Below, in pieces: positions 45,520 to 50,793 of a stretch of DNA of 64,000 nt. The notes beneath the pieces are model-generated. The model saw nothing but the letters and a program-made list of their open reading frames with translations, did not search any database and was not told the origin of the DNA. Numbering within the stretch: position 1 is the stretch's first letter; each line of letters starts with the position of its first letter. The stretch comes from Pseudoclavibacter chungangensis (GTDB lineage Bacteria; Actinomycetota; Actinomycetes; Actinomycetales; Microbacteriaceae), in assembly GCF_013410545.1 (NCBI RefSeq), contig NZ_JACCFV010000001.1, positions 3,410,001 to 3,474,000 on the forward strand, in the 5' to 3' direction. Made by a program: the position numbers and the translations under genes.

Positions 45520-47268
45520 TTGATCCAAGGTGAGCGCACCCTGGCCGGTCGGTACGAGATCGGTCGCCGGGTCGGGCGTGGCGGCATGGCCGAGGTGTAC
45601 CTCGGCACCGACGAACGGCTCGGTCGTCGTGTCGCAGTCAAGTTGCTCTCCACGTCGCTCGCCGGCGAGCCGGACTTCCGGTCGCGGTTTCGCCAGGAGG
45701 CGCAGGCCGCGGCGCGCATGACGCACCCCACGATCGTCCGCGTGTTCGATGCCGGTGAAGACACCTTCATCCGCGCCGACGGACACGAGCTCATCGTCCC
45801 GTACATCGTCATGGAGTACATCGAAGGCGAACAACTCCGCGACATCATGATGGATGCGCCGCTCCCGATCGACAAGGTCGTGAGCTACATGTCGGGCATC
45901 CTCACCGCGCTCGAGTACTCGCACCGCGCGGGCGTGGTGCACCGCGACATCAAGCCGGGGAACATCAAGATCACGCCCGAGGGCACGGTCAAGGTGATGG
46001 ACTTCGGTATCGCACGTGCGATCTCCGACACGGCGGGCACGATCGCCCAGACCACGGCGATCCTCGGCACCGCCTCGTACTTCTCGCCCGAGCAGGCGAA
46101 GGGCGAGCAGGTGGACGGGCGAAGCGACCTGTATTCGGCCGGCATCGTGCTCTACGAGATGCTCACGGGGAAGGTGCCGTTCCAGGGCGACTCCGCCGTG
46201 GCCGTCGCGTACCAGCACGTGACCGAGAAGCCGGTCCCGCCGAGCCAGATCAATCCGGATGTGTCGCCGGCCATGGACGCGGTCGTACTGCGAGCGCTCG
46301 CGAAGAACCGGGACGCGCGCTTCCAGTCGGCCTCCGAGTTCCGACGCGACCTCGAACTCGCCGCACAGGGCACGATGCCGGCCTTCGCGACGGCCGACGA
46401 CCCGAGCGACGACACGCAGCTCTTCGGTGCGGCGCCCACGTCCGTCGACCAGACGGAGTCGGCCTTCGCCGCACTGTCCGAGACCGACGACCGCGCGCCC
46501 CAGGTGCAGCGGCGCCCGCCCGCGATGTGGATCTGGGGGTCCGCCGCGCTGCTCGTCGTCATCGTGATCGCGGTCATCATCTGGGTCGGGAATCTCGGTG
46601 GCGTCGATCCGCTCCCGGCGACGAGTTCGGACATGCCCGATGTCGTCGGGCAGACGTGGGAGGAGGCCGAGGCGGCGATCCGTCTCGCCGAGCTCGAACC
46701 CACGCGTCAGACGGAGACGAGCGACACGGTCCCCGAGGGCGTCGTCATCTCGACGACCCCGGAGGCGGGCCTCACCGTGACGAAGGGCACGACCGTCACG
46801 GTCCTGGTCTCGTCGGGCCCGTCGGCCATCCCCATGCCGAACATCGACGGGATGACCGAGGATCAGGCGCGCACGGCGCTCGAGAACGCCGGGCTCTCGC
46901 TCGGGACGATCACCTCGCAGGACTCCGCCACGGCACCCGCCGGGACGATCATCAAGTCGGATCCCCCGAGCGGTTCGCAGGTCGCACCTGGGACGTCGAT
47001 CAACATCGTCGTCTCGTCGGGGAACGTGACCCTCGATGATCTCCGCGGGATGCCGCTCAGCCAGGCACAGGACAAGCTCCGCACGCTCGGGCTGCAGGCG
47101 ATCGTCGTGGAGGACCCGAACTGTCCCGCCGACGACGACCAGACGGTCGTGAACATGTCGGAGGCCGCGGGCTCGGTCCCCCAGCACTCGACGGTCACGA
47201 TCACGTACTGCAGCGGTGCCCCGAAGACGCCCGAGACGACGGCACCGCCCTCGCCGCCCCACACCTGA
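45520..47268 (+). CDS. pknB: Ser/Thr protein kinase PknB with three PASTA domains
   Basis: The TTG at 45520 gives 582 residues. The kinase domain (about 10-275) has GRGGMAEVY, Lys41, HRDIKPGN (141-148), DFG161-163 and the activation-loop Thr pair in AQTTAILGT. After a linker there is a membrane helix (about 344-365, MWIWGSAALLVVIVIAVIIW). Three PASTA repeats follow (MPDVVGQTWEEAEAAIRLAE; MPNIDGMTEDQARTALENAG; LDDLRGMPLSQAQDKLRTLG). They bind muropeptides or lipid II, coupling wall status to kinase activity. A 126-bp gap separates it from pknA, with TAGTAT at about 45452 as a possible internal -10. Confidence 0.94.
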   Translation: MIQGERTLAGRYEIGRRVGRGGMAEVYLGTDERLGRRVAVKLLSTSLAGEPDFRSRFRQEAQAAARMTHPTIVRVFDAGEDTFIRADGHELIVPYIVMEYIEGEQLRDIMMDAPLPIDKVVSYMSGILTALEYSHRAGVVHRDIKPGNIKITPEGTVKVMDFGIARAISDTAGTIAQTTAILGTASYFSPEQAKGEQVDGRSDLYSAGIVLYEMLTGKVPFQGDSAVAVAYQHVTEKPVPPSQINPDVSPAMDAVVLRALAKNRDARFQSASEFRRDLELAAQGTMPAFATADDPSDDTQLFGAAPTSVDQTESAFAALSETDDRAPQVQRRPPAMWIWGSAALLVVIVIAVIIWVGNLGGVDPLPATSSDMPDVVGQTWEEAEAAIRLAELEPTRQTETSDTVPEGVVISTTPEAGLTVTKGTTVTVLVSSGPSAIPMPNIDGMTEDQARTALENAGLSLGTITSQDSATAPAGTIIKSDPPSGSQVAPGTSINIVVSSGNVTLDDLRGMPLSQAQDKLRTLGLQAIVVEDPNCPADDDQTVVNMSEAAGSVPQHSTVTITYCSGAPKTPETTAPPSPPHT

Positions 47269-47604: not shown

Positions 47605-47787
47605 TTACGAGATGCCGAGGAGCCCCATACCGACGGTCACGTCGCTCTCCTGCTCGAGGAGCGAATCGACCCACGGGAACACCCAGTACACGAGCCCGTA
47701 CAGGATCGCGGCGACGAGCACGAGCACGATGAGCAACTTCACGGGCCACGGGCCCGGCAGGACCCGCCAGAGGGCGCCGTACATCAA
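47605..47787 (-). CDS. small single-pass membrane protein downstream of the sortase
   Basis: A 60-residue protein. MMYGALWRVLPGPWPVKLLI opens a membrane helix (VKLLIVLVLVAAILYGLVYW), followed by a short amphipathic stretch ending DVTVGMGLLGIS. Its start overlaps the stop of the class E sortase gene by 4 bp, so the two are translationally coupled. Small proteins of this kind occur next to class E sortases in Microbacteriaceae; function unknown. Confidence 0.8.
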   Translation of the reverse strand: MMYGALWRVLPGPWPVKLLIVLVLVAAILYGLVYWVFPWVDSLLEQESDVTVGMGLLGIS

Positions 47788-48761
47788 CCGCCCCCGTTCG
47801 CGACCGCCTGGGCGATCTGTTCGGGCGGGCCGTCCGCGCGTGCGGTGAAGTGCGCGAACGTCGCGTAGGCGATGATGCGCTCGGCGGTCGACCAGAACGG
47901 ATTGCAGCTCATGAGCGTGAGGATCCGATCGGTTCCGAGCCCGGCGGGTGGCGTCGGTACCGCGGGCGCGTCCGCGGACTGCTCGTCCTCGTTGAGGCCG
48001 AGCGTCCCCCCGCTCTCCTCGCCCGTCGGGACGCGTGGGATCGGATTGAGGACGTCGATCTGCGTCGGCGCCACGTACTCGCCGGAACGATACGTGTAGG
48101 TGTACCAGCCGTCCTTCGTCCCGATGATGATCTCGTCGCCCAGTTGCAGCTCGTGGATGTGCTGCATCGACGCACCGTACGCGAGCCGGTGGCCGGCGAT
48201 GGCGAAGTTGCCTACGGCACCCGGCATCTGCGTGTCCTCGTAGTGCCCGACGTTCTGGTTGAGCACCTCGTGGTAGCCGGTGCCCTCGGCGATCGGACGA
48301 CTGTAGTCGGCACCCCAGGCGGGCACGTACAGCACGGCGAATCGTTCGTTCGTGACCGTCGGCGCGATGCCGACCGGGATCCCGATCTCGGGGTCGACCG
48401 TCGACTCGGGCGCTGAGCTCTCGGCGTCGTCACGGGAGAACGACTCCTCGACACTCGCACCGACGGAGTTCTGTTCGTTGCCGACGATGAGGTCGTTAAG
48501 CCAGTACTTCCAGCCGACGAACATGAGCAGGACGAGCCCCATCGTCAGGAGGAGTTCACCCGCGACCCCGACGGCGGTCACCTTGGGGCGAGGCTTCGCG
48601 CGCGCGTGCCGGATGGAGCGTCGGCTCGGCAGTGCGGGCGCCGGCTCGGCCGCCCGCGGCTCGTACCCGTCGGACGGCGATGCGTCGCCGCCGAGCAGCG
48701 TCGGCAGACCGTCGACGTCGTCGGAGCCGTCGGCGCCGGAAGGGGTGCGGGAAGAGGGCAT
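47784..48761 (-). CDS. class E sortase
   Basis: The ATG at 48761 gives 325 residues. After an Arg/Pro-rich cytoplasmic N-terminus, one membrane helix (ELLLTMGLVLLMFVGWKYWL, about 68-90) anchors the protein. The extracellular sortase domain has the catalytic His in NFAIAGHRLAYG, the catalytic Cys in LTLMSCNPFWST, and the Arg in AERIIAYA. Class E (SrtE-type) enzymes of actinobacteria attach LAxTG-type proteins to the wall. A long acidic insert (GEESGGTLGLNEDEQSADAP) lies before the Cys. Its ATG is at the predicted transcription start, so the mRNA may be leaderless. Confidence 0.9.
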   Translation of the reverse strand: MPSSRTPSGADGSDDVDGLPTLLGGDASPSDGYEPRAAEPAPALPSRRSIRHARAKPRPKVTAVGVAGELLLTMGLVLLMFVGWKYWLNDLIVGNEQNSVGASVEESFSRDDAESSAPESTVDPEIGIPVGIAPTVTNERFAVLYVPAWGADYSRPIAEGTGYHEVLNQNVGHYEDTQMPGAVGNFAIAGHRLAYGASMQHIHELQLGDEIIIGTKDGWYTYTYRSGEYVAPTQIDVLNPIPRVPTGEESGGTLGLNEDEQSADAPAVPTPPAGLGTDRILTLMSCNPFWSTAERIIAYATFAHFTARADGPPEQIAQAVANGGG

Positions 48762-48768
48762 GCTATCG

Positions 48769-48782
48769 ATTCTAGATAGAAT
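48769..48782. promoter_or_regulatory. mirror-symmetric divergent -10 pair for sortase and crgA
   Basis: The perfect inverted repeat ATTCTA-GA-TAGAAT supplies a TAGAAT -10 box on each strand: minus 48774-48769 for the sortase and plus 48777-48782 for crgA. Each is followed by exactly 7 nt and then the ATG (48761 and 48790), so both transcripts should begin at or within 1-2 nt of the start codon. Confidence 0.7.
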
Positions 48783-48789
48783 GATCGAC

Positions 48790-49764
48790 ATGCCCACTGA
48801 GAAGCCTTCGCGCGCCCGGAAGACGTCGCGCGATCGCGCGAACGCCGATCGCGCCCGCACGAGTCCCGACCCGATCGAGGAGGACATCGAGGACCTCGAC
48901 GACGCGGTGGTGGACGAGGACGACGACCTGGACCCGGACGACGACCTCGACGAGGACGACGACCTGGACCCAGACGACGACCTCGACGAGGACGACGACC
49001 TGGACGAAGACGACCTCGACGAGGACGACGATCTCGACGAGGACGAAGACGACCTGGCCGACGACGACCTGGCCGAGGACGACCTGGCCGAGGACGACGA
49101 CGAGGACCTCGACCCGGACGACGACGAGGACGACTTCGACGAAGGAGACCTCGAGGACGAGGACGAGGACGATCTCGAGGACGAGGACCTCGACGAGTAC
49201 GACGACTACGACGACCTCGATGAGGACGATCGCGCCGAGAGCGCGACGCCGGCCTCGAAGCGATCCGACTCGCGGAACGCGAAGAACGACCGACGCGCGA
49301 CCGCCACCTCGAAGTCCGCCAAGGGCGGCCGGGCATCGGTCGGCACGGGCAAGGGGTCGAAGCGCAAGCTGACCGAGGCGGAGCGCAAGGCGCTCGAGCG
49401 CGAGCGCGCCCGCGAGAAGGCACGCGCCGCTCGCGCGGCAGCCAAGGGGGCCGCCAACGCGAAGGGCGGCGCCGCCGTCAAGACACCGGCCGGCAGCAAG
49501 AAGAACACGTCATCGCAGGCGTCGGCAGCGGCCTCCGCGGCGGCCGCGGCCGAGAAGCGTCAGCGCCGGGCACGTCCCGAGAACGCGAACCCGGTGTGGT
49601 TCAAGCCGCTCATGTTCGGGTTCCTCATCATCGGGTTCCTCTGGATCATCGTCTTCTACCTCTCCACGGGCGAGTTCCCCATCAAGGAGCTCGGCAACTG
49701 GAACATCCTCGTGGGCTTCGGCATCGCCTTCGTCGGGTTCCTCATGACGACGAACTGGAAATAG
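48790..49764 (+). CDS. crgA: CrgA cell-division protein with very long acidic and basic N-terminal extensions
   Basis: The ATG at 48790 gives 324 residues. The C-terminal 62 residues (RPENANPVWFKPLMFGFLII, FLWIIVFYLSTGEFPIKELG, NWNILVGFGIAFVGFLMTTN) are the CrgA domain with two membrane helices; CrgA proteins are usually only 80-100 residues. Here residues 30-148 are almost entirely Asp, Glu and Leu in repeats such as DDDLDEDDD, and residues 155-262 form a Lys/Arg/Ala-rich helical linker (RKLTEAERKALERERAREKA). CrgA stabilises the divisome and interacts with FtsZ, FtsQ and PBPs; the extension would lie in the cytoplasm. Confidence 0.88.
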   Translation: MPTEKPSRARKTSRDRANADRARTSPDPIEEDIEDLDDAVVDEDDDLDPDDDLDEDDDLDPDDDLDEDDDLDEDDLDEDDDLDEDEDDLADDDLAEDDLAEDDDEDLDPDDDEDDFDEGDLEDEDEDDLEDEDLDEYDDYDDLDEDDRAESATPASKRSDSRNAKNDRRATATSKSAKGGRASVGTGKGSKRKLTEAERKALERERAREKARAARAAAKGAANAKGGAAVKTPAGSKKNTSSQASAAASAAAAAEKRQRRARPENANPVWFKPLMFGFLIIGFLWIIVFYLSTGEFPIKELGNWNILVGFGIAFVGFLMTTNWK

Positions 49765-49947: not shown

Positions 49948-50793
49948 TCACGTCAGCTGGACGACAGCCACCGAGACGAGGGCACAGACGAGTCCGAGCA
50001 CACCGACCCCGACCCCGCCGCGGATCCGCTTGCCGAGCGAATCGGCCCGGTCCCGGCCGAGCAGCCAACCGGCCGCGAGCCCCACGAGCAGGCCCCCGAT
50101 GTGCGCCTGCCAGGCGATCCCGGGGACGACGAATCCGAGGACGATGTTCATACCCACGAGCACGAGCAACGATGTCGTGTTCATGCGCATCTCGCGCATG
50201 ACCGTGAAGTAGGCGCCGAAGAGCCCGAAGACGGCGCCCGAGGCACCGATGACCGCCGTGTCGGGCGCGATGATCGTCACGAGCATCGATCCGCCGAGCG
50301 CTGCCGCGACCCACAGCAGCAGGAATCGCCACCAGCCGTAGGCGGGCTCGAGCACGCGGCCGAAGAGCCAGAGCGTCAACATGTTGAAGCCGACGTGGAA
50401 GATCGACCCGTGCACGAGGGTCGCCGTGAACAACCGCCACGGCTCGAAGTGTTCGGGCGTCAGGAACGCGGAGGTGTAGGCGAGGGGCTGGGCGAGGTCG
50501 ACGCCGGGGATCAGGCCGACGAGCCACAGGAGTGCCGTGACGGCGATGATCGAGTAGGTGACGACCGGTGCCCCGGCCCCCAGCCGGGCACGGAGTCGAC
50601 GGACGGGACTCCGCTTCGGAACAGCGCCCCGCGCGGCCTTCATGCACTCGGGACAGATCGATCCGACCGGGGCCTGGGTCTGGCACTCGGGGCAGATCGT
50701 GCGACCGCACCGCTGGCAGAGCACGAAGCTCTGCCGGTCCGGGTGCCGGTAGCAGAAGTTGTCGCGGTGATTCGGGTCGAACGGGGCGCTCAT
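49948..50793 (-). CDS. rhomboid-family intramembrane serine protease with B-box zinc finger
   Basis: A 281-residue protein. Residues 10-52 hold a zinc-binding region (NFCYRHPDRQSFVLCQRCGR, TICPECQTQAPVGSICPECM) with paired Cys/His. Six membrane helices follow. The rhomboid active site is Ser185 in IGASGAVFG and His231 in WQAHIGGLL, with the HVGFN loop at 133-137. Rhomboids cleave membrane-protein helices; the native substrate is unknown. It is transcribed with ppiA upstream (8-bp gap), the order seen near crgA in several actinobacteria. Confidence 0.93.
   Translation of the reverse strand: MSAPFDPNHRDNFCYRHPDRQSFVLCQRCGRTICPECQTQAPVGSICPECMKAARGAVPKRSPVRRLRARLGAGAPVVTYSIIAVTALLWLVGLIPGVDLAQPLAYTSAFLTPEHFEPWRLFTATLVHGSIFHVGFNMLTLWLFGRVLEPAYGWWRFLLLWVAAALGGSMLVTIIAPDTAVIGASGAVFGLFGAYFTVMREMRMNTTSLLVLVGMNIVLGFVVPGIAWQAHIGGLLVGLAAGWLLGRDRADSLGKRIRGGVGVGVLGLVCALVSVAVVQLT

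Follow-up and report, generated by a model that had tools for sequence, protein, structure and literature searches.

The crgA gene and its translation start

The window (the whole 64,000-nucleotide stretch of DNA analyzed) contains, on the forward strand at 48790..49764, an open frame for 324 amino acids plus a stop. Its product has a single match in Pfam, to CrgA (PF06781), which covers residues 246-324 (49525..49764, same strand; E 2.4e-26, 92.2 bits against a cut-off of 24.8) and includes predicted helices; about 245 residues, acidic and then basic, precede the match. Around crgA, Pfam identifies a kinase with PASTA domains (45520-47268) and, on the minus strand, a rhomboid protein (49948-50793); the frame at 47784-48761, in the form submitted to Pfam, is a sortase on the opposite strand.

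The acidic tract, residues 30-148 (48877..49233, forward strand), is a predicted coil of tandem repeats with 66 Asp, 22 Glu, and 16 Leu among its 119 residues. The initial annotation called it almost pure acidic; 88/119 residues are Asp or Glu, a proportion of 74%, and a leucine recurs about every 5-6 residues. The Lys/Arg/Ala-rich segment that follows, defined by composition (residues 149-266, 49234..49587, forward strand), has 31 Lys or Arg, 34 Ala, and only 10 Asp or Glu in 118 residues, and it includes the sequence TPAGSKK..SS..SAAA, a related form of which is kept in 10/10 members of the genus. The order proposed initially, an acidic tract and then a basic segment ahead of CrgA, is thus borne out by the open frame, the composition, and the Pfam match, although the span then assigned (48790..49240) takes in only the acidic half of a gene that continues to 49764. 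The peak Asp/Glu fraction per 40 residues, 0.80, is the highest of the 349 frames of at least 100 aa in the window; the second highest, 0.525, is on the opposite strand of crgA itself.

Codons that could serve as starts are scarce. In-frame ATG, GTG, or TTG occurs only at codons 1, 40, 41, 269, 275, 308, and 319 (rarer CTG codons are also present, one at 194); with none of the three between codons 41 and 269, the CrgA domain could hardly be made without acidic tract. A -10-like box, TAGAAT (48777..48782, forward strand), lies 7 nt before the ATG, and a TANNNT so close to the ATG is the arrangement expected of a leaderless mRNA. The box is found 6-7 nt before the proposed ATG in 19/19 loci, ten of the window genus and nine of the neighboring genus. 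By script, 159/167 loci were found to have TANNNT 6-8 nt upstream of a candidate start, one locus being able to contribute several candidate ATGs, as compared with 189/9537 ATGs at large; this count was drawn from 172 loci (L011-L182, including the nine of the neighboring genus), five of which have no ATG in range. crgA therefore appears, from these sequences, to be leaderless across the Microbacteriaceae, and the upstream ATG is well supported as its start. A start downstream of the tract, which the initial annotation had raised against its own reading, is rejected on the gap in start codons together with the box at all 19 clade loci.

Distribution and variation of the arm

crgA is present in all ten genomes of the window genus. 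We take this genus to be Pseudoclavibacter because the public P. endophyticus protein P0042 ends like L005, one of its members, and P0046, from Pseudoclavibacter sp. AY1F1, is identical to L009 and L010; the neighboring genus is taken as Gulosibacter because P0033, from Gulosibacter bifidus, is identical to L177. P0042 also illustrates how annotation can hide an acidic arm: its 118 residues match the end of the L005 protein after the first residue, but the record starts at a TTG inside the arm, so that 193 preceding residues, and with them the acidic tract, were dropped.

Five of the ten Pseudoclavibacter genomes encode a long acidic CrgA (L001, 324 aa; L005, 311; L002, 216; L003, 200; L006, 178), and in the other five (L004, L007-L010) CrgA has 118 aa and the acidic tract is absent. 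The initial annotation had asked whether close relatives have the short form and this stretch goes untranslated: the former is true of half the genus, and the tract is in frame in the five long genes as well as in the neighboring genus. Of 182 loci (10 of the genus, the 30 best-scoring of 388 matching genomes, 53, and 89), 11 reached at least 0.45 Asp/Glu per 40 residues ahead of the CrgA domain, all of them Pseudoclavibacter (5/10) or Gulosibacter (6/9); these loci represent 83 of 85 genera, two having no match, and most genera by one genome, so scattered cases may be missed. The remaining three Gulosibacter genomes have weakly acidic arms (0.28-0.35).

Several Microbacterium loci (L055, L056, and L069) have, ahead of an ordinary ATG for a protein of 79 aa, frames that read as acidic (0.33-0.40); these were judged chance antisense acidity and excluded from the arm count, and none reaches 0.45. 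Outside the family, 10 of 51 loci of the order, in three families, have at least 0.40 Asp/Glu, but the 51 were a chosen sample (20 for long open frames, 30 for weak scores) and give no rate. In five of these ten (L250, L251, L252, L254, and L282) the acidic stretch is followed by a Lys-rich one and then the CrgA domain, as in the window; their acidity is weaker (0.40-0.47 per 40 residues), their starts are only putative, and three have no ATG in frame before the domain. Separately, many genomes of one genus of another family (g91 of f7; G403, G421, G437, and others) have two CrgA matches.

A tree of FtsZ, which is a single and slowly changing protein and should be read with that caution, placed the two genera in one clade (support 96/94). 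Its 55 rows came from 60 loci, after removal of four short-form rows that were identical and of G403, where the frame was not found. The short-CrgA form grouped with two acidic species (99/91), and its lack of an acidic tract therefore looks, by sequence, like loss. The window genome joined Gulosibacter (88/83) rather than the rest of Pseudoclavibacter in this tree; in a 30-row tree, by contrast, Pseudoclavibacter formed one side of a branch.

The arm is common to the two neighboring genera, and its acidic block changes more than its basic one. Among 30 clade proteins (19 loci and 15 from databases, four nearly identical short forms having been removed), net charge varied more in the acidic part (CV 0.57) than in the basic part (0.32), and the two charges were correlated (rho 0.50, P 0.005, uncorrected for kinship; rho 0.65, likewise uncorrected, for all 34 proteins). 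In 11 close Gulosibacter-type proteins, a set that excludes the more divergent P0021, 12/92 acidic columns vary and eight have gaps, whereas 7/74 linker columns vary and none is gapped, and only 1/58 varies in the domain. Pseudoclavibacter arms span 60 to 266 residues; the acidic block in them ranges from absent to about 120 residues. The expansion and contraction of the tract expected initially is thus supported as length variation between species, with gaps confined to the acidic part in the 11 close proteins.

The DNA of the window tract is itself repetitive: an 18-bp unit is present in 12.4 copies with 71% matches, and within it a 36-bp unit (48913..49005, forward strand; about 2.6 copies, no more than one mismatch in 57 bases) is probably a recent duplication. 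Seventeen other DNA matches to the tract were found in the same genome among the 40 scored of 760 candidates, and seven of them, as read, reach no more than 0.60 Asp/Glu per 40 residues. Another protein of that genome (L330, G000:C1:1351887-1352010), possibly the main sigma factor, has a Lys/Ala-rich and then acidic N-terminal region (0.60 per 40 residues).

This duplication, the gaps in the acidic columns, the very variable length, and the absence of the tract from 5/10 genomes of the genus are all as expected if in-frame duplication of the acidic repeat was simply tolerated: the length and charge of the tract would then count for little, and function would lie in the basic linker and the membrane domain alone. 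We regard such neutral expansion as possible but rather unlikely, as acidity of at least 0.45 is kept in 11/19 clade genomes despite sequence divergence, and the window and L005 tracts are built from different repeats yet have similar leucine spacing.

The evenness of that spacing was matched in 0/5000 shuffles for both L001 and L005 and gave 0.03 for L002; it was not significant in the same shuffle test for L003 (0.12) and L176 (0.16). Regular leucines might be contact points within a polyampholyte or acidic scaffold of the kind that the initial annotation had in mind, the blocks of many CrgA molecules driving septal clustering or condensation, or recruiting some other basic partner, and the strong segregation of charge in the arm would suit such a role. 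However, tandem duplication alone could produce the spacing. Moreover, charge balance between the two blocks is not supported by their net charges in the window protein (-84 and +22), the sum over the whole arm being -62, with -51 in L005. We consider a scaffold of this kind improbable.

FtsQ and FtsZ in the same clade

The reading of FtsZ, together with the frame that precedes it, covered 44 genomes of Microbacteriaceae (30 + 14; loci L184-L213, L214-L243, and L307-L321), and FtsQ was found in 42, the exceptions being G012 and G026. In 21 of the 23 other Microbacteriaceae with FtsQ, the protein starts with (M/V)(K/R)RPxG/S and has an arm of 90-186 aa. That start is absent from the 19 clade genomes, bar one match in G009; this KRPxG lies 131 codons up, is probably out-of-frame murC, and was discounted as an arm. 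In-frame ATG or GTG starts and stops give clade arms of approximately 18-88 aa, and an in-frame stop holds the arm to 39-91 aa in 11/19 genomes. The other eight (G002, G003, G004, G007, G009, G108, G217, and G297) have no upstream stop below 92 aa, and longer in-frame starts, up to 138 aa, are possible there. The cytoplasmic arm of FtsQ thus seems, on these frames, to have been shortened in the clade.

FtsZ of the clade has a distinct linker motif, W(S/T)TAE(A/Q)PT, in 18/19 genomes and in 0/25 other Microbacteriaceae; the lone exception within the clade, G007, reads WSTQESPT. A wider form of the pattern matched 0/29 FtsZ tails outside the clade (15 of them from other families, G403 having no frame). 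Because a Trp is found at a similar place in the linker of many other Microbacteriaceae, the clade motif may be a sharpened old motif.

It is tempting to join these changes into one history, in which the ancestor of Pseudoclavibacter and Gulosibacter moved an FtsZ- and membrane-binding arm from FtsQ to CrgA, the new arm reads W(S/T)TAE(A/Q)PT, and the acidic tract sets the strength of the contact. As a whole, we think this unlikely. The changes in FtsQ, CrgA, and FtsZ may share one branch, and their co-occurrence therefore counts about once; the FtsQ and FtsZ data are a lead rather than a test. Strict compensation between the FtsQ and CrgA arms is not supported, since FtsQ arms, too, are shortest in the five short-CrgA Pseudoclavibacter genomes.

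The FtsZ tails as read end acidic, before their last few residues, and the CrgA arm is expected to be cytoplasmic and is highly negative. The acidic tail might on this account act by electrostatic repulsion, holding DNA or the acidic FtsZ tail at a distance from the membrane anchor up to septum closure; but relatives with the short form manage without the tract, and we hold this role to be very improbable.

A candidate role for the arm and its known counterparts

An AlphaFold model built with 27 aligned relatives, of modest confidence (mean pLDDT 56.5, pTM 0.26), has residues 1-195 as coil, followed by an Arg/Ala-rich helix at residues 196-221 (49375..49452, forward strand; pLDDT 66-76 by blocks of ten) and an Ala-rich helix at 241-260 (49510..49569, forward strand; 63-68 by blocks of ten). 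Two further predicted helices, 271-293 and 304-321, lie within the Pfam domain and are taken as the two C-terminal membrane helices.

The explanation we favor, at a probability of about 0.45, is that CrgA of this clade has a disordered two-block cytoplasmic arm whose basic helices bind the membrane and FtsZ in competition with the acidic tail. The Arg/Lys/Ala helices beside the first membrane helix would bind acidic lipids and FtsZ, the acidic tail would fold back on them as an intramolecular competitor, and tail length would tune the strength of binding; the clade would have enlarged the arm on CrgA while that on FtsQ shrank. The binding and competition are inferred by analogy, because the layout matches that of M. 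tuberculosis FtsQ 1-99 and the N-terminal part of CrgA from the same species was mapped to FtsZ. Several observations count against the explanation: the acidic charge is far above the basic, three of the nine Gulosibacter arms are only weakly acidic, five Pseudoclavibacter genomes have no acidic tract, and the structural model is of modest confidence.

Among the titles and abstract openings listed for open-licence papers on CrgA and on Pseudoclavibacter or Gulosibacter division, an acidic-basic CrgA arm is not reported. The N-terminal part of CrgA, to which FtsZ binding was mapped, is short in the species studied; the arm described here probably tunes attachment of the divisome to the membrane and FtsZ, if the analogy holds, and those of Pseudoclavibacter are a natural length series for charge tuning of the divisome by a disordered arm.

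At 324 aa, the window protein exceeds the usual, but not defining, length of ~80-100 residues, and relatives of 147-311 aa were also found. A long CrgA as such is not new: NCBIfam already has models for CrgA with an N-terminal extension, as in the window, of 191 (NF002594) and 157 (NF002593) positions, and the range of 80-100 residues given as normal in the initial annotation was too narrow. The window protein scores far below the cut-offs of both (69.6 of 389 and 68.5 of 141, respectively), and NF002594 aligns to residues 160-324, leaving the acidic tract outside the match. The solved CrgA structures 2MMU and 9NM2 both match window residues 265-323, but their chains, of 101-102 residues, are without the long front arm.

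M. tuberculosis CrgA is reported to localize to the septum and to interact with FtsZ, FtsQ, and FtsI, its N-terminal part having been mapped to FtsZ (PMC3989709). The closest counterpart of the arm itself is in FtsQ of the same species, residues 1-99 of which comprise an acidic tail, an Arg/Ala-rich helix, and a membrane helix; the Arg/Ala-rich helix binds the acidic N-terminal tail as well as acidic membranes and the GTPase domain of FtsZ (PMC10036325). By composition and the modest-confidence model, the window CrgA arm resembles that portion of FtsQ in running from an acidic tail through an Arg/Ala-rich helix to a membrane helix. The two are nevertheless not homologous by Pfam: window CrgA has no POTRA/FtsQ domain, the same genome has a separate FtsQ-like frame upstream of ftsZ, and the acidic part in the window is much longer than that of FtsQ.
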